Origin: Spirosoma aerolatum
GTDB lineage: Bacteria; Bacteroidota; Bacteroidia; Cytophagales; Spirosomataceae
Length of the DNA stretch: 64,000 bases
Direction: 5' to 3'
Assembly: GCF_002056795.1 (NCBI RefSeq)
Contig: NZ_CP020104.1
Span: 5,031,501 to 5,095,500, forward strand
Of the stretch, positions 1,434 to 13,993 are shown piece after piece. Within the stretch, counting starts at the first letter, position 1, and each line of letters starts with the position of its first letter. The position numbers and the translations under genes were made by a program. The notes beneath the pieces were generated by a model. That model made no database searches. It worked only from the letters and a program-made list of their open reading frames with translations, and had not been told where the DNA came from.

Positions 1434-2009
1434 CTTTTCGTGACGGTTCTCTCCGCTGATGTTGCCGAAGCCATCGCGGAAGTACGAAGTAAAGTGCAAG
1501 CCGAATCGCTGTTGAAGAAAACGCCGACCGCTTGCTTCGTCTGACCGGCGACATTCTGAATATGGTTCAGGTTGAGTCGGGGTAGATCGAACTCCACATT
1601 CAGTCGGTTAAACCATTAGAGATGGTCCAAACGGCCATGGCAGACCTCCGAACGCAGGCCGAGCAGAAACAAATTCAGTTTGCGCTGTCGGCATCCGATC
1701 GTAAAAGCGGATTTGGATAAAGCCTCTTAGGTACTGATTAACTTCCTGTCGAATGCCGTTCGGGACAGTCCCGAACAAGCAACGATCGACATTGCTGTTA
1801 ATCAACTGGATAATGAAGTAGAATTCATGGTTCGGGATTATGGTCCAGGCTTACAACCCGCACACCGCGTTTGCTTGTTTGATCAGTATTTCAAAGCCCC
1901 CAGCCTCAATGGCCAGGTCAGTGGCATAGGGTTAGGTCTGGCCATTTCCACAGAGTTTATTCAATCGATGGGTGGACAGATCGGTTTGATATTCCATGAT
2001 ATATTGTAG
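1434..2009 (+). pseudogene. Decayed histidine kinase C-terminal part (Kdp-associated sensor)
   Basis: The stretch can be read as a histidine kinase only by changing frame and passing stops. One frame gives ENADRLLRLTGDILNMVQVE followed by SG and a stop, typical of the end of a phosphoacceptor domain. A later frame starting near 1740 gives INFLSNAVRDSPEQ (degenerate N box), VRDYGPGL (degenerate G1 box) and GIGLGLAISTEFIQSMGGQI (G2 box). At least one in-frame stop near 1582 and frame breaks near 1700-1735 separate them. Kdp operons of Bacteroidota often end with such a kinase, so this is probably the 3' end of the collapsed operon. A functional kinase is excluded by the lost domains. Confidence 0.75.
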
Positions 2010-4774: not shown

Positions 4775-5590
4775 TTAGCCAAAATAGGCTTTGAATGACC
4801 GGATGGTTTGCCGGGCCGCCTGATCAGAATCTGGAAAAGGAAACGCTTCCGCCGAAATATACCCCGTATAGCCAATTTCTTTGAGGGCAATGGCCACTTC
4901 GTCCATGGCGGTGTGCCCAAATCCAATAGGTCGTCGGTTGCTATCGGCAAAGTGAACATGGCCAATGTACGACCCCGCTTTGCGGATGCTCTCAGGCAAC
5001 GATCGCTCTTCAATGTTCATGTGAAACAGATCAGCCAGCAACACGACCTGATTGGTAGTTAGGGAGCGGATAAACTCAACTCCCGTGCTGAGGTCATTGA
5101 TCAGGTTGGTTTCGTAGCGGTTCAGTGGTTCGTAAATTAGCTTCACACCCAGCGTTTCGGCATGATTACCTAGCTGATATAACCCATCTGCCAGCCAATG
5201 AAGTGCCTGCTCTTTTTCTACGCCCGGTGCTATGTTTCCCTGCATAGAGCCGATAATGGCTGGGGCGCCAACAGTTGCCCCGAACGACATCATAGCGGCA
5301 ATGAAGGCTACCGCGTGGGCGCGAATCTGCGGATCAGGGTCAGTCAGCGTTAATCCATGCAGGACTTTTCCCGCTCCAGTTCCTACAGCCGCTATCTTCA
5401 GGTCAAATCGACCCAGTAAATCCGTTAACTGACTGGAACTAACGGTATCGGCAGCGGGCGTAAATAACTCAACGGCATCGAAACCTAAGGCAGCCGCTTT
5501 GGCCATACTCGTTTCCAGATCATTCCAGTAAATCCAGGGGCCCGTTTTGATGGCAGGAACCAGCGCAATAGTAACACAGGATTTCATCAA
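4775..5590 (-). CDS. Sugar phosphate isomerase/epimerase (AP-endonuclease-2-like TIM barrel)
   Basis: The 271-residue product is a xylose-isomerase-like TIM barrel. Metal and substrate residues are probably in LIYEPLNRYETN (Glu near residue 155), VVLLADLFHMNIEE (Asp/His near 190), YIGHVHFADSNR (His near 210) and YISAEAF (final Glu). Family members act as ketose epimerases or sugar isomerases in the cytoplasm. The start lies 4 bases inside the end of the upstream dehydrogenase gene, pointing to translational coupling. The substrate is unknown; the context of a RhaM-like mutarotase and two dehydrogenases suggests a 6-deoxy or rare sugar. Confidence 0.85.
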   Translation of the reverse strand: MMKSCVTIALVPAIKTGPWIYWNDLETSMAKAAALGFDAVELFTPAADTVSSSQLTDLLGRFDLKIAAVGTGAGKVLHGLTLTDPDPQIRAHAVAFIAAMMSFGATVGAPAIIGSMQGNIAPGVEKEQALHWLADGLYQLGNHAETLGVKLIYEPLNRYETNLINDLSTGVEFIRSLTTNQVVLLADLFHMNIEERSLPESIRKAGSYIGHVHFADSNRRPIGFGHTAMDEVAIALKEIGYTGYISAEAFPFPDSDQAARQTIRSFKAYFG

Positions 5591-6624
5591 TTCGCTATGG
5601 GATCAAAATTGACCATAATTTTCGTGATTGGTCCTGGATTAGCTGACCAGTCTGCCAGAGCAGCCCCCGCTTCATCCAGCGAAACCATCCGGCTAATCAC
5701 CGCATCGACTGGAAATTTACCCGCTTCCAGGTACTCGATCACCTCCGGAAATTCGCTCAGGCAATTGCGGGAGCCCAGAATTTCGATTTCTTTTCGAACG
5801 AATGTACCCGTGTTGTAATCAACGGGCTTTTTTGCATAGCCAATATAAACCACGCGCCCCGTGTAGGCCACCTCATCGACGGCGGCCCGGTAAGTAGCCG
5901 GATGTCCGACAGCTTCGATAATTACATCAGGACCGTCTCCATCGGTAATTTCCGTCAGCGCTTCGTGCAGATCGACGCGGCTTGTGTTGATGGTATGAGC
6001 CGCTCCGGCCAGGCTCGCTGTTCGCATTTTAGCATCGTCGATGTCGATGGCAATCACCTCAGCCCCTCGATGAACCGCAGCTGCCACAGCACCCATACCC
6101 ACAATACCGCAACCGATAACCGCCACTCTTTCGCCCGCTACGACCCGGCCCCGGCTCACGGCATGAAAACCTACCGTCAGCGGCTCAACCAGCGCCAACT
6201 CCCTGACCGACAATGTAGCCGAACTATGTAGTTTTTGCCAAGGAACGCTGATCAATCGGGTCATCGCACCGGGTCGACGGACACCCATCGTTTTGTTGTC
6301 CTGACAGGCATTGGGCCGCCCTTTGCGGCAGGAAAGGCAAACGCCACAATTCAGATACGGATTTAAGGTAACCCGCATACCCGGCTGGTACTGCCCCGGC
6401 ACCTGGTTACCTGTTTCCAGCACAGTAGCCCCCACTTCGTGGCCCAATACGTTCGGATATTCCTGCAATTCGAACAGCCCCCGAAAACCGTTGAGATCGC
6501 CCCCGCAGAAACCTACCTTATTCACTTCCAATAATACATCCTCCGGGCCGGGGGTGGGAATATCGATCTCGCGTATTTCGGTTTTTCCAGGTTCCACCAG
6601 CACCAAAGCAGGTTGTTTATTCAT
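5587..6624 (-). CDS. Zinc-dependent alcohol dehydrogenase (medium-chain family)
   Basis: I chose the ATG at 6624 (MNKQPALVLVEPGK), giving 345 residues and an 8-base overlap with the upstream reductase gene. A longer upstream start is less likely. Catalytic zinc residues are seen in GFCGGDLNGF and GHEVG. The structural-zinc cysteines lie in NCGVCLSCRKGRPNAC. The nucleotide-binding turn is VIGCGIVGMG. Such enzymes oxidise sugars or polyols with NAD(P). The tight overlap on both sides puts it in the same operon as the isomerase and the reductase. L-fucose, L-rhamnose, sorbitol or threonine-like substrates are all possible. Confidence 0.88.
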   Translation of the reverse strand: MNKQPALVLVEPGKTEIREIDIPTPGPEDVLLEVNKVGFCGGDLNGFRGLFELQEYPNVLGHEVGATVLETGNQVPGQYQPGMRVTLNPYLNCGVCLSCRKGRPNACQDNKTMGVRRPGAMTRLISVPWQKLHSSATLSVRELALVEPLTVGFHAVSRGRVVAGERVAVIGCGIVGMGAVAAAVHRGAEVIAIDIDDAKMRTASLAGAAHTINTSRVDLHEALTEITDGDGPDVIIEAVGHPATYRAAVDEVAYTGRVVYIGYAKKPVDYNTGTFVRKEIEILGSRNCLSEFPEVIEYLEAGKFPVDAVISRMVSLDEAGAALADWSANPGPITKIMVNFDPIAN

Positions 6625-7573: not shown

Positions 7574-7980
7574 TGATTCGTTTTGAAAAAAGAATCCTGG
7601 TAGTTGCTGTCCCACTCGATGACAACAGTATGATTCACTACTACCTGATACCTGAAATACTCAGATAGCAAATGCGCTCAATACTCGTTTCTACTAGCGA
7701 AAAGCCTATATAAAGGCCCAATTAGCAGAAAATTTTGCCGGTAAAGGTAATATAAAGTAAAAATAGCGCTCCAAATCAAAAAGTTGTAGATCGCCCTGAG
7801 ATAAGCCGATAACTGAGTGAGCCGCTGTAAAATATTACAAATTTCCAGGTGGTGGGGCTAGGACGTTAGCCTTGCCTTGAATTTGCCTATAGCCAGAGAA
7901 CAAACTATCCGTATTTTTACTTAATAATCCCCTACATTTGGGTATCTATCTAGATTAACCACTCAACCATCAATAGCGTC
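7574..7980. promoter_or_regulatory. Divergent promoter region between sugar operon and lipoprotein
   Basis: About 400 bases with no credible gene. A TACATTTG box at 7933-7940 fits the Bacteroidota minus-7 consensus TAnnTTTG and would serve the lipoprotein at 7981. No good TTTG box stands at the usual spacing upstream, only a T run near 7914. The operon promoter on the minus strand should also lie here but I could not locate it. Confidence 0.45.
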
Positions 7981-8403
7981 ATGTCCGGTTTTTCCGTCAA
8001 AAGACTTTGTAGCAGCTTTGCTTTGCCAATTTTATTGTTGGTCATTGGCTGTGGACACTACGTACGTCCCAGTATCGCCCAGGCCACTGCGGGTAGTTAT
8101 CAACTGGATCAGTATTCAACAGCCAATCTTTCCGACAACAATCCTACAGGTACGATTCAGGTCACTGAAATCAGTCCTGACCTGATTAATATTACCGTAA
8201 TGGGCACATCAGGCAAAACTAAATTTACCTATACCTACTCCAATGTCGACGTAGTTTTAACAGGTCAAAACGCCTTCGACCAGGATATGTTCTCGCTGAT
8301 TTATAAGGGAAAATACTTAGGTCAGGCTGGTAGTGATGGCATTAGCCGATTTATTGAAATTTACCCCACACCCCGCATTACACTGCGAGCTATTGAATAT
8401 TAA
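7981..8403 (+). CDS. Hypothetical lipoprotein
   Basis: The 140-residue product has a lipoprotein signal ending LLVIGCGHY, with the lipidated cysteine near residue 24. The mature domain is short and beta-rich (YQLDQYSTANLSDNN, IQVTEISPDLINITVMGTSG, FTYTYSNVDVVL), which could be a small barrel of the lipocalin type, though no signature is clear. It stands alone between two minus-strand operons and is followed by an inverted repeat at 8478-8535. Function unknown. Confidence 0.7.
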   Translation: MSGFSVKRLCSSFALPILLLVIGCGHYVRPSIAQATAGSYQLDQYSTANLSDNNPTGTIQVTEISPDLINITVMGTSGKTKFTYTYSNVDVVLTGQNAFDQDMFSLIYKGKYLGQAGSDGISRFIEIYPTPRITLRAIEY

Positions 8404-11246: not shown

Positions 11247-11720
11247 TCACTCTTCCGAAAAGGGGATTGAGCGGTTAATGCTCTCTTCGAGTGAGATAAA
11301 GGTTTCCGTACGTTGTACTCCGCTCACTTTCTGAATTTTATCGTGTAGCACTTCTCTCAGATGCTGGGTATCACGACAAACGATTTTGGCGAATATGCTA
11401 TAAATACCCGTTGTATAGTGCACATTGACGACCTCAGGGATTTTTTCCAGTTGCCTGGATACATCTTCATACAATGAGCTTTTATCTAAATAAATACCCA
11501 GAAAGGCACTGATATCCCAACCTAGTTTGGCGTGATCGATCACCAGCTGCGATCCCCGAACAATACCCATCTGCCGAAGCTTATTCATCCGAACATGTAC
11601 GGTTCCCCCCGAAACGAAGATTCGTTTCCCAATTTCGGTGTACGGCATATTGGCATCCTGCATTAGCAGGCTCAGTATTTTTAGATCAGTATTATCAATT
11701 TCTAAATTTTTTTCCGCCAT
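11247..11720 (-). CDS. Lrp/AsnC family transcriptional regulator
   Basis: The 157-residue product has an N-terminal winged helix-turn-helix (LDNTD-like start IDNTDLKILSLLMQDA, recognition region FVSGGTVHVRMNKL) and a C-terminal RAM/Lrp ligand domain (VNVHYTTGIYSIFAKIVCRD, GVQRTETFISLEESIN). It probably binds DNA as a dimer or octamer and responds to an amino acid. The presence of a Gly-Gly turn in the recognition region, where many Lrp proteins have Ser-Ser, is typical for this lineage. Targets are unknown; it is divergent from the tRNA-like gene and lepA. Confidence 0.92.
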   Translation of the reverse strand: MAEKNLEIDNTDLKILSLLMQDANMPYTEIGKRIFVSGGTVHVRMNKLRQMGIVRGSQLVIDHAKLGWDISAFLGIYLDKSSLYEDVSRQLEKIPEVVNVHYTTGIYSIFAKIVCRDTQHLREVLHDKIQKVSGVQRTETFISLEESINRSIPFSEE

Positions 11721-11802: not shown

Positions 11803-11835
11803 TTTGCAACAAATATCACCTATTACTTAACTTTG
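11803..11835 (+). promoter_or_regulatory. Bacteroidota-type promoter for the tRNA-like gene
   Basis: TTTG at 11803-11806 and TAACTTTG at 11828-11835 match the Bacteroidota consensus TTTG / TAnnTTTG with a spacer of 21 bases. Transcription would start near 11840-11844, just before a leader hairpin and 50-60 bases ahead of the tRNA-like gene. Seen in sequence; activity is inferred. Confidence 0.65.
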
Positions 11836-11839
11836 CAAT

Positions 11840-11888
11840 GTCAAGTTGATCGAGCGGGGTCAGCACGCCGGTCTTCTTGACATTTTTT
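11840..11888 (+). promoter_or_regulatory. Leader hairpin with T run upstream of tRNA-like gene
   Basis: GTCAAG (11840-11845) pairs with CTTGAC (11876-11881), directly followed by six Ts (11883-11888). The stem is short and the loop 30 bases, so it is a weak terminator or attenuator candidate. Within the loop, ACGCCGGTCT (11865-11874) is exactly complementary to AGACCGGCGT (12110-12119) in the terminator beyond the tRNA-like gene. That allows an alternative long-range stem. Confidence 0.45.
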
Positions 11889-11896
11889 CCTCACAC

Positions 11897-12054
11897 TGTA
11901 GGATGTCGAAATTGGCAGACGTGCCCTCCTGTCTCGGGGGTGGTGATAAAGGATAAACGCAGCATAATGCCGCCCTCGTGGCGACTGGGGTTGACCACCA
12001 GAGATTGTACTGTAGCTAACTGCACCGTGGGCGGTTCGAGTCCCCCTCCTACAG
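11897..12054 (+). tRNA. tRNA-Leu-like gene with giant variable arm
   Basis: A perfect 7-bp acceptor stem (TGTAGGA 11897-11903 with TCCTACA 12047-12053) encloses a Leu-type D arm (CGAAATTGGCAGACG), a 5-bp anticodon stem (CCCTC 11924-11928 / GGGGG 11936-11940) and a T loop TTCGAGT (12035-12041). The T stem GGCGG / CCCCC has one C-C mismatch. The anticodon loop CTGTCTC places GTC at positions 34-36, which nominally reads Asp codons although the body is Leu-like, and position 37 is a pyrimidine. GGTG (11942-11945) and CACC (12023-12026) form a type II variable arm, but its loop is about 77 nt. The 3' CCA is not encoded in full (G then CA). It could be a functional odd tRNA, a tRNA-like regulator or a decaying gene. 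Confidence 0.6.
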
Positions 12055-12088
12055 CATTTGGTTTTTAGTTTGTTGATGAAGTGTAATT

Positions 12089-12128
12089 GAACACGCCGGC
12101 TCCTGGATGAGACCGGCGTTTGTTTTTT
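12089..12128 (+). terminator. Terminator of the tRNA-like gene
   Basis: ACGCCGG (12093-12099), extended by CTC, pairs with GAG-A-CCGGCGT (12109-12119), with one bulged A. Six Ts follow at 12123-12128. This is a strong Rho-independent terminator about 40 bases after the acceptor stem. It supports independent transcription of the tRNA-like gene and separates it from lepA. Confidence 0.8.
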
Positions 12129-12133
12129 ATGCG

Positions 12134-12141: not shown

Positions 12142-12205
12142 CCGTTTAAAAAGGTAGTTCGGCCCATACCGCTTGAACTACAAACCTCAAACAGGATTTT
12201 TCTAC

Positions 12206-13993
12206 GTGAAACACATCCGTAATTTTTGCATTATTGCTCATATCGACCACGGAAAAAGTACCCTGGCCGACCGATTATTAGAATTTACCAAGACAGTAGG
12301 TGCCCGCGACATGCAGGCCCAATTGCTCGATGATATGGATCTGGAACGAGAACGCGGTATCACCATCAAGAGCCATGCCATCCAGATGGAATACATGCAT
12401 AAGGGGGAACTTTATACCCTGAACCTGATCGATACACCAGGGCACGTTGACTTTTCCTACGAGGTTTCGCGATCCATTGCCGCCTGCGAAGGTGCCTTAC
12501 TTTTGGTCGATGCGTCGCAGGGAACCGAAGCACAGACCATCTCCAACCTCTATCTGGCCCTGAATAACGATCTGGTTATTATTCCTGTCCTGAACAAAAT
12601 TGACCTTCCCGGTGCCATGCCCGAAGAGATTAAGGACGAGATGGTTGACCTGCTGGGCTGCGACCGGGACGACATTATTCCGGCATCGGGTAAAGAGGGC
12701 ATTGGTGTTCCTGAAATTCTGGCCGCCATTGTCGAGCGGATTCCAGCCCCAACCGGCGATCCTGATGGCGCCTTACAGGCACTGATTTTTGATTCGCATT
12801 TCAATTCCTACCGTGGTATTGAAGTTATTTTCCGGGTTAAGAACGGACGGATTCGGAAAGGCGACAAGGTTAAATTTATGAACACCGGCAAAGAATATAT
12901 TGCCGATGAGGTAGGTACTCTCGGCTTGGACCAGGTGCCTAAACCAGTGATCGAATGTGGCGATGTAGGCTACCTCATATCAGGAATTAAAGTAGCCAAA
13001 GAGGTAAAAGTCGGCGATACCGTTACCACCGTCGACAATCCTGCCAGTTCGGCAATTCAGGGTTTTTCGGAAGTGAAACCAATGGTATTTGCGGGCATTT
13101 ACCCTGTCGAAACCAGTGAGTTCGAAGACCTCCGCGATGCTATGGAGAAGCTCCAGCTCAATGATGCGGCTCTTGTATGGGAGCCCGAAACATCGGCGGC
13201 CTTAGGCTTTGGCTTTCGTTGTGGCTTTCTGGGGATGCTTCATATGGAGATCGTACAGGAGCGTCTGGAGCGTGAATTTGACATGACGGTCATCACTACA
13301 GTGCCCTCAGTGCGCTTCGAGGTGATGACTACCAAAGGGCAGGACATTCAGGTATCGGCCCCCGCTGATATGCCTGACCCGAACCTCATCGACTATATTG
13401 AAGAGCCATTTATCCGGGCACAGATCATTACCAAGGCCGAGTATGTGGGGGGTATCATGAGTCTATGTATGGATAAGCGGAGTATACTTAAAAACCAGGT
13501 ATATCTAACCGCCGAGCGGGTTGAACTCCAGTTCGAGATGCCACTGGCCGAAGTCGTATTCGACTTTTTCGATAAGCTTAAAACGATCTCGCGTGGGTAT
13601 GCTTCGCTCGACTATGAGTTTATGGACAACCGGGAATCGGACATGGTCAAGCTCGACGTTATGCTCAACGGCGATAAAGTCGATGCCCTCTCAGCCATCG
13701 TCCACCGCTCGAAATCGTACGAATGGGGTAAAAAACTCTGCGAAAAACTCAAGGAATTAATTCCGCGCCAACAGTTTGAAATCGCGATTCAGGCCGCTAT
13801 TGGACAAAAAATCATTGCTCGCGAAACCCTGAGCGCCTTGCGAAAAGACGTACTGGCCAAGTGTTACGGTGGCGATATTTCGCGGAAACGTAAACTGCTC
13901 GAAAAGCAGAAAAAAGGAAAGAAACGTATGCGCCAAGTCGGCAACGTCGAAATTCCGCAGGAAGCCTTTATGGCCGTTCTGAAGATCAACTAA
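12206..13993 (+). CDS. lepA: Elongation factor 4 (LepA), ribosome back-translocating GTPase
   Basis: I place the start at the GTG of 12206 ([20 protein letters not shown]), because LepA proteins begin at this residue and the result, 595 residues, is the family length. The upstream in-frame ATG at 12173 would add 11 unusual residues. GTPase motifs are [26 protein letters not shown] and NKIDLPGA. The C-terminal LepA-specific domain includes [20 protein letters not shown], followed by a lysine-rich end. LepA acts in initiation and elongation on the 30S/70S ribosome. A terminator follows directly. The gene stands alone. Confidence 0.96.

Follow-up and report, generated by a model that had tools for sequence, protein, structure and literature searches.

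The transcript of a tRNA-type gene can also give rise to a small RNA, as in 3'ETS-leuZ, an RNA of a tRNA 3' external transcribed spacer that is derived from the trailer. Kissing loops mediating retroviral dimerisation expose stretches that vary in sequence and remain self-complementary. In tmRNA, a tRNA-like end is part of a larger RNA. Long variable arms and non-canonical structures are described for allo-tRNAs, selC-type tRNA-Cys and tRNA-Sec in the available part of PMC7609411, which also places some allo-tRNA-like forms in polycistrons, their use being unknown. According to the available part of PMC12286853, GOLLD and ROOL are structured phage RNAs of unknown function that occur near tRNA islands and form RNA-RNA multimers.

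The gene described here was found in a window of 64,000 nucleotides from Spirosoma aerolatum (contig NZ_CP020104.1, positions 5,031,501 to 5,095,500); positions below are those of the window. It encodes a tRNA-like RNA with a giant variable arm (11897..12055, plus strand, 159 nt including the discriminator G and C74). The RNA shares with canonical tRNA-Leu and tRNA-Asp (RF00005) the cloverleaf, a D arm of the Leu type, an Asp-like loop, G73 and C74, and differs from them in its variable domain (39–123 nt in hosts), a pyrimidine at position 37 and, in this clade, a bulge in the T stem; RF00005 and ARAGORN detect the family only as a short form of 77 nt. Unlike the case of 3'ETS-leuZ, the trailer element found here hardly varies from genus to genus and follows an RNA that is itself no ordinary tRNA, and the putative dimers, unlike those of retroviruses, concern phage versions of a tRNA-like RNA. 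Some of the phage arrays that hold the RNA also include a tmRNA, but the family keeps an anticodon arm and ARAGORN called no tmRNA at 36 member loci. In allo-tRNAs and tRNA-Sec, the acceptor/T geometry is altered according to the same part of PMC7609411, whereas it is 7/5 here; in addition, the arm is here a multi-helix domain, and the family was seen only in Bacteroidia and phage contigs. GOLLD and ROOL, as presented in the available part of PMC12286853, are larger and have no tRNA body, although the GOLLD linker may hold tRNAs.

Structure of the RNA in S. aerolatum

The cloverleaf consists of a 7-bp acceptor stem, D and anticodon arms and a T arm with a 5-bp stem. The acceptor stem (TGTAGGA/TCCTACA, 11897-11903/12047-12053) was read directly and is supported by covariation. 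It is followed by the Leu-type D arm with GG in the loop (11906..11922), the outermost pair of which is U-U in the window sequence, and by the anticodon arm CCCTC-CTGTCTC-GGGGG (11924..11940, loop 11929-11935) with the anticodon GTC and U37. The T arm (12029..12046) has the loop TTCGAGT (12035-12041), and the gene ends with the discriminator G73 and an encoded C74 (12054..12055). Together with U8, the GG of the D loop and the TTCGA of the T loop, these elements make up the usual tRNA signature. An earlier reading of the letters without database searches (the sequence-only reading) had described the acceptor stem, the D arm, the 5-bp anticodon stem and the T loop in the same way, all of which direct reading confirmed, as well as a GTC anticodon with a pyrimidine at position 37 in a Leu body, which agrees with the loop CTGTCTC. 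It had also assumed a C-C mismatch in the T stem; a bulged pyrimidine (GGG-Y-GG/CCCCC) describes the stem better, since a homolog (L048) that is devoid of this base pairs fully. The bulge is typical of the window's own clade.

The variable domain (11942..12026) begins with the V1 stem GGTG/CACC (11942-11945/12023-12026), which encloses exactly 77 nt. The oversized interior had been correctly noticed, but its description as a loop with one hairpin did not hold, as the 77 nt contain several helices. These are the short helix V2 (11950-11951/12020-12021), a conserved internal loop GATAAA/CTAA (11952-11957 and 12016-12019), the 8-bp helix P5 (11960-11967/12005-12012) and two hairpins, namely P6 (CGCC/GGCG, 11971-11974/11980-11983), which was read directly, and the predicted P7 (11986-11988/11998-12000). 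An alternative pairing of ACCACC with GGTGGT of the variable arm was ruled out, since V1 covaries with the 3' CACC in alignment A1 (see below). Folding of the single RNA sequence was no better than that of shuffled sequences (z 0.23), and for this reason the evidence for the structure is comparative.

Conservation and covariation

After rejection of 45 of 317 rows that were short or contained N, the anticodon arm could be parsed in 227 of the 238 unique rows; the other 11, nine of which belong to another phage RNA family and two of which are copies at locus L098 with a replaced anticodon stem, were dropped, leaving 227 unique members.

In alignment A1 (24 diverse members), 13 of 39 pairs changed on both sides and 96.9% of the cells were paired. 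None of 500 shuffles was as high on four of the five covariation measures, and 55 of 500 reached the fifth one (further pair types). The anticodon arm is invariant in A1, as is P7, and covariation is located elsewhere, including P5 and P6. In alignment A4 (108 distinct sequences), which was fitted to a covariance model and hence leans toward it, 22 of 32 pairs changed on both sides, 97.0% of the cells were paired and all five measures lay above all 500 shuffles. The A4 acceptor stem showed 99.9% paired cells and changes on both sides in five of seven pairs; the corresponding values for the D arm were 96.3% and two of three pairs. The T-arm helix (helix 6) was paired in 99.6% of the cells, and V1 covaries in this alignment. 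Compensatory changes in the acceptor and variable-arm stems, which the earlier reading had proposed to look for, are thus present and, as judged from the alignments, most helices of the family are supported by covariation.

The motifs of the internal loop, [GA]A[TCA]AAA facing CTAA, are both present in 182 of the 227 unique members. In these, the first pair of V2 is paired in 181 cases (GC 135, CG 19, TA 18, AT 8, TG 1), the shuffled maximum being 68.7%. The family core therefore comprises the acceptor, D, anticodon and T arms, V1, V2, the internal loop and a hairpin of free sequence. Long forms carry an additional GGRTTGACCAC (85/167 host and 56/60 phage members), and the candidate P7 within it never varies. 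At the 3' end, G73 and C74 are each found in 226 of the 227 members. Since a C after the discriminator was also found in 33 ordinary tRNAs read from the same genome, the 3' end of the RNA resembles a tRNA end awaiting CCA completion.

Detection and distribution among hosts

ARAGORN found no genes in the window. Comparison of the window with Rfam gave no match at the gathering score and no tRNA match up to E = 10, loose thresholds yielding matches at chance level only. At 36 member loci, ARAGORN called only the 77-nt form at L118, which was also the only match of RF00005 among nine member loci. The genome of S. aerolatum (8.0 Mb, one contig) contains one copy of the RNA. Ordinary tRNAs gave 41 matches in it, including tRNA-Asp(GTC) and tRNA-Leu(GAG), and because normal copies of both are present, the tRNA-like gene does not replace either of them.

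BLAST detected a copy, usually at a single site per genome, in 203 of the 222 genomes belonging to the same taxonomic family and in 29 of the 36 genera, and more members were found throughout the order with the first covariance model, so that the presence in relatives on which the earlier reading had made its claim depend is confirmed. The tally of the order search (223/242) includes matches to ordinary tRNA-Leu and tRNA-Ser, and the overall tally of the class search described below likewise contains such weak matches. The matches split into full-length ones (at least 79 bits and at least 109 nt) and the rest (at most 57 bits, 74-92 nt), with two copies of L098 falling between the groups (63-67 bits). 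On the basis of their length, weak matches (<=57 bits with R1, <62 bits with R2) were regarded as ordinary Leu/Ser tRNAs and left out of the count, except for 77-nt forms and cut or damaged copies. When the second covariance model was run over 346 class genomes, 65 of them reached E <=1e-15 (counted by hand from the table). Of these 65, 15 lie among the 16 genomes of the own order, where G231 has the 77-nt form, and 50 among the 330 genomes of other orders. In a phylum sample of 118 genomes, 12 were found at E <=1e-14, all from the own order or from elsewhere in the class. In GTDB species genomes, a pattern scan yielded at least 120 stretches; the 80 matches listed all bear Bacteroidota names, among them Spirosoma, Dyadobacter, Cyclobacterium, Algoriphagus, Flammeovirga, Runella, Emticicia, Saprospiraceae and others. 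Copy number in the family varies from 1 to 6: tandem arrays of 4 to 6 copies spaced by ~190-210 nt occur in several genomes (six copies at L083, five at L082 and five at L167 in Flammeovirga pacifica).

No description of the RNA was found in the searched literature (titles and abstract openings, with subscription journals mostly outside the coverage). A family with a full tRNA body has probably gone unnoticed because ARAGORN as the tRNA finder and Rfam as the RNA family library both reject it.

Short, altered and decayed copies were also seen. The 77-nt form occurs in four relatives (G231, G386, G391, G399); the three such forms that were read (L458, L118, L459) have no variable domain and show the loop CTATCTC with A34. 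ARAGORN names the form of L118 tRNA-Asp(atc), so some members of this kind may be annotated as odd Asp tRNAs. At L098, two of four tandem copies (1690-1822 and 1870-2002, minus strand) have the 5' side of the anticodon stem replaced by the palindromic repeat CATCCCGATAGCTATCGGGA, possibly a repeat element that was inserted there. Apparently decayed copies lie near the Lrp gene at L438:1227-1343 and L435:2105-2214, and the family may be in the process of loss in some relatives.

Transcription unit and neighbor genes

A promoter-like sequence, TTG-N21-TAACTTTG, is located at 11804..11835 (plus strand) and was recognized in a pattern scan of divergent regions. It is of the type TTG/TANNTTTG, which we take to be the Bacteroidota consensus. 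Of 75 divergent intergenic regions, 44 carry the pattern TTG-N17-23-TANNTTTG directed at the RNA, with 1.05 expected from mononucleotide shuffles, and two carry it directed at Lrp; in phages, it is present in 3 of 59 upstream regions. The 5' leader (11840..11888) contains, by direct reading, a GTCAAG/CTTGAC hairpin followed by a T run just 5' of the RNA and has an attenuator-like appearance. Downstream, an intrinsic terminator was read directly at 12093..12128 (stem ACGCCGG/CCGGCGT, hairpin 12093-12119, then a T run). The region 12056-12130 folds with z −2.15; a consensus terminator scan did not report the terminator at 12093..12128. The promoter-like boxes and the terminator attributed to the gene by the sequence-only reading were thus located, the promoter pattern being common among hosts, and the transcription unit probably spans from the promoter near 11804 to the terminator ending near 12128.

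The divergent gene upstream (11247..11720, minus strand) encodes a transcription regulator of the Lrp/AsnC family (157 aa; Pfam AsnC_trans_reg 5.6e-20, HTH_24, HTH_AsnC-type). Among the 118 host loci with sufficient flanking sequence, 76 have a homolog of it divergently upstream, at a median distance of 164 bp, and wherever the gene is present beside the RNA, the orientation is divergent (76/76). As loci of the class sample outside the own order show the same arrangement, it is probably old. An Lrp ortholog (E <1e-50) was found in 33 of 35 genomes of the order with the RNA and in 17 of 35 without a full-length match, in hand-picked sets with counts that ignore kinship and completeness, the latter set being impure, since it includes four genomes with the 77-nt form (G231, G386, G391, G399), two with apparently decayed copies (G417, G413), one whose RNA is cut by the stretch end (G233) and one without lepA at the DNA level (G208); as evidence for a coupling of the RNA with Lrp in presence and absence, these counts are accordingly weak. 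Lrp often persists where the RNA has been lost, and the orthologs in the 17 genomes indicate that Lrp has other work.

A reading frame at 12173..13993 (plus strand), presumably lepA-like as recognized from its sequence and encoding a translation GTPase, lies downstream and is probably separate. LepA was rejected as a general partner, since the lepA cluster was found at just six loci. LepA and HslV adjoin the RNA in some close relatives, and SufB does so at 12 loci, one of which was confirmed by Pfam. None of ten recurrent neighbor proteins matched PADLOC defence models; Pfam matches above the cut-off among these ten were to SufB/D, DUF819 and an RNase H-like protein. A genome of the same genus (G208, 99% completeness) lacks the RNA and an Lrp ortholog and gave no lepA match above 45 bits at the DNA level, which reflects either a gap or a regional deletion.

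A 3' trailer element of 20 nt, TTTAGTTTGTTGATGAAGTG (12064..12083, plus strand), near-invariant in the clade, is a candidate small RNA seed or processing signal. Of 215 host loci, 95 have it downstream of the RNA on the same strand, at a distance of 1-174 nt, 91 in exact form and four with one mismatch; the other 120 show at least six mismatches. It stands directly ahead of a terminator in the 11 examples displayed. It was not found at the 12 phage loci scored. An exact match to it occurs nowhere else in the 8-Mb genome, and a single further site has at most two mismatches (L478:1501-1520; 18/20); this site is antisense-oriented, provides 16 nt of unbroken complement and lies 26 nt before a reading frame of 86 aa with a Pfam ACT_4 match just below the cut-off; the reversed pattern, used as a control, had no match in the genome. 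From its sequence context, the element looks like the seed of a small RNA, and a processing site or a protein site is possible instead.

Phage members

The loop pattern matched 86 viral stretches, and the RNA was present in all 80 that were examined; as the stretches were fetched by this pattern, the count does not measure the frequency of the RNA among phages. The score was at least 77.9 bits in 79 of the 80, L321 being cut by the stretch end and L300 partly cut. Ordinary tRNAs also occur in 44 of the 80 stretches, five or more in 23. In L279, the RNA is part of an array comprising 25 tRNAs, a normal tRNA-Asp among them, and a tmRNA; other stretches, for example L283, L302, L320 and L322, contain no tRNA over the part of the contig that was covered. 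Eight of ten phage neighbor proteins matched a PHROG at E <=1e-3; neighbors include terminase large subunits (near some members), exonucleases and PhoH. BLAST of named phages with two of the phage members, and of named phages and plasmids with the window sequence, found nothing, and a third phage member matched one uncultured phage of 636 kb with the RNA amid tRNAs.

On a FastTree tree (219 rows, 138 columns) with many unresolved forks, in which near-copies add to the clustering, the host/phage label needs two changes, with a shuffled mean of 51. From this tree, the phage versions look like old lineages rather than recent pick-ups.

Of 50 unique phage regions, 47 have a palindrome of at least 6 nt after GACCAC (17.6 expected), and in 36 its length is at least 8 nt (4.8 expected); some 20 distinct palindrome sequences occupy this place. 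Near-identical phages raise these counts but not the variety. Hosts show no such excess (at least 8 nt in 9 of 75, 7.0 expected). Among 44 unique 18-nt phage stretches, 39 contain a palindrome of at least 6 nt, with nine different central tetranucleotides. An odd-length loop cannot be self-complementary; 23 of the 3-bp inverted repeats have such loops. Those with an even loop are self-complementary in 25 cases (23/23 of 4 nt and 2/2 of 6 nt), and one 8-nt even loop is not. A plain hairpin needs no self-complementary loop, and pairing between two copies would; the palindromes thus suggest that phage versions form dimers through diverse self-complementary loops. Alternatively, the palindromes may serve a ligand with two-fold symmetry or have a cause at the level of the DNA.

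Other unusual RNAs were noticed in the phage stretches. Some phage members (L257, L289, L291, L296, L312) have an additional hairpin-like insertion in the D loop. A second unannotated phage RNA family has Leu-like tRNA ends (AGTCAGG...CCTGACTAC) around 60-110 nt without a clear anticodon arm and occurs in the same phage tRNA arrays (minus strand, L265:7683-7830, 6143-6262, 6478-6616 and 7947-8052, and L326:5065-5185 and 5270-5412; plus strand, L325:3170-3298 and L270:4907-5050). In addition, a phage tRNA-like gene at L304:4214-4339 (plus strand) carries ~50 extra nt in the anticodon region and is not called by ARAGORN.

Anticodon loop and aminoacylation identity

Loop counts were obtained from 91 unique members, those fetched by loop-fixing patterns being left out. 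U35, C36 and C38 are each present in 91 of 91, and position 37 is always a pyrimidine (U 90, C 1). U33 is found in 82, and position 34 is G in 80, as in the window, and A or C in 11. All 33 ordinary tRNAs read from the same genome have a purine at position 37, as do 248 of the 251 unique phage tRNAs, which makes the use of the RNA for decoding unlikely as far as the sequence can tell. The loop shares six of seven bases with that of tRNA-Asp (CUGUCUC and CUGUCAC, respectively).

In the available part of PMC9976931, bacterial Asp identity is given as G73, G10, G34, U35, C36 and C38, the second acceptor pair being minor. Among the 227 unique members, G2 is found in 227, C71 in 226 and G73 in 226, and the combination of an xUC anticodon, C38 and G73 occurs only in tRNA-Asp among the 33 ordinary tRNAs read. 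The G1-C72 pair of tRNA-Asp is replaced by U1 and A72 (223 each), and G10 is found in 14 members (A 160, U 53). Bacterial Ser determinants include, in the same part of PMC9976931, G73, G2-C71, R4-Y69 and a large variable arm. G73, G2-C71, the large arm and R4-Y69 (215/227) are present in the RNA, but A72 stands in place of C72 (223/227) and G30-C40 is found in only 5 of 227 (U30-G40 in 182); position 11 is U in 203. LeuRS wants A73, and G73 is a LeuRS antideterminant in E. coli tRNA-Ser, according to that part of PMC9976931; in the family, 226 of 227 members have G73. Aspartylation is the leading proposal because the fixed loop bases, G73 and G2-C71 cover most of the Asp identity set and Ser fits less well. 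The remark of the sequence-only reading on an Asp anticodon in a Leu body thus proved important: G34, U35, C36, C38 and G73 fit AspRS, and U37 argues against decoding.

Discussion

The comparisons argue strongly for a real, conserved and structured RNA common to bacteria and phages and absent from Rfam. Structure and conservation are thus strongly supported, and from the same sequences we infer charging and function. The account that we tentatively prefer, at somewhat less than even confidence, is that of a tRNA-derived RNA matured like a tRNA, outside codon reading, charged or charge-sensing, set by Lrp and dimeric in phages. Its ends would very probably be cut by tRNA enzymes and completed with CCA. 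AspRS would recognize the RNA via G34, U35, C36, C38, G73 and G2-C71 and load aspartate, a step to which we give close to an even chance. U37 and the bulky arm would probably exclude the RNA from decoding, and it may, somewhat less probably than the charging step, act as a charged or charge-sensing molecule outside the ribosomal A site, with the divergent Lrp/AsnC regulator setting its level in many hosts. Phages would carry the RNA for the same activity, or for relief from it, during infection, and their versions might, with even chances, pair into dimers via the self-complementary loops. Against the AspRS step stand the absence of G10 and G1-C72, a position 34 occupied by A or C in 11 of the 91 members and by A in the three 77-nt forms read, which should be disfavored by AspRS, and an anticodon stem more fixed than AspRS requires. 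The account as a whole is further weakened by the partial agreement with Ser identity, by the Lrp orthologs in genomes without a full-length match, by the 77-nt forms that lack the variable domain and by the dispensability of the RNA in some relatives. A more cautiously held formulation is that of a new RNA class, a non-decoding aminoacylatable relative of tRNA in Bacteroidia and their phages with a giant arm, an adjacent Lrp gene and, in some clades, a small RNA in the trailer.

The tRNA-Asp-like loop, with its six shared bases, could also serve as a decoy or mimic that sequesters a nuclease, toxin or modifying enzyme, phages thereby protecting their tRNA pool. The variation in copy number from 1 to 6 with tandem arrays, the presence of the RNA in phage stretches with and without ordinary tRNAs and its dispensability in some relatives agree with this unlikely, though not negligible, alternative, but conservation almost equals that of the anticodon loop both at the acceptor end and in the variable domain's internal loop, which is beyond the need of a decoy; that ten recurrent neighbors gave no PADLOC match weighs weakly against it, since the actor need not be a neighbor. 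Slightly less probable is a tRNA body that acts as a processing or stability module, the work being done by the variable domain, as a ligand- or protein-binding element, and, in this clade, by a small RNA cut from the trailer. The conserved internal loop, the exact trailer element in 91 of 215 host loci over spacers of 1-174 nt with the terminator next to it in the displayed cases, and the antisense-oriented 18/20 match before a small ACT-like gene would fit; yet the trailer is absent from 120 host loci and the 12 phage loci scored, and the 77-nt forms, read without a variable domain, keep the loop and the acceptor. Charging by SerRS via G73 and the long arm, with the anticodon loop left for another partner, is improbable: the Ser determinants shared by the RNA are offset by A72, U11 and U30-G40, and the strict UCUC loop would be left without explanation.

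That the RNA is a true decoding, or recoding, Asp tRNA with an unusual arm is more doubtful still. The GUC anticodon (80/91) and U33 (82/91) would allow it, but not the pyrimidine at position 37 in every loop-unbiased member or the non-U33 bases in nine, and a normal tRNA-Asp coexists with it in the genome and in several phage arrays. An intron spliced from the variable arm, to which the insert-less 77-nt forms might point, is very improbable, as the insert helices are conserved and continuous with the arm, no Rfam intron matched and the domain ranges from 39 to 123 nt in hosts. The lowest probability, close to nil, is given to a decaying tRNA pseudogene. Decay seems to have affected the copies at L438 and L435, but covariation, near-invariant loop and ends, a conserved promoter pattern and separate phage lineages are not the marks of relaxed selection. 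The earlier reading had left three options: a new tRNA class, a tRNA-derived regulatory RNA and a decaying tRNA. Conservation, covariation, the common promoter and retention in phages reject the last of them for the window gene, and the other two are supported as to form only, the family being widespread and unseen by Rfam and ARAGORN.

The family appears to be a natural example of a tRNA fold retained for non-decoding use, in a group of which many members can be cultivated. Since phages retain it both within tRNA arrays and in stretches where no ordinary tRNA was found, its value to infection is testable, and it bears on the roles of non-decoding tRNAs, on phage tRNA arrays and on the sensing of amino-acid supply. 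If the family is indeed such a new RNA class, the giant arm, self-dimerizing in phages, would let a charged or charge-sensing RNA, long shared with phages, act outside translation.
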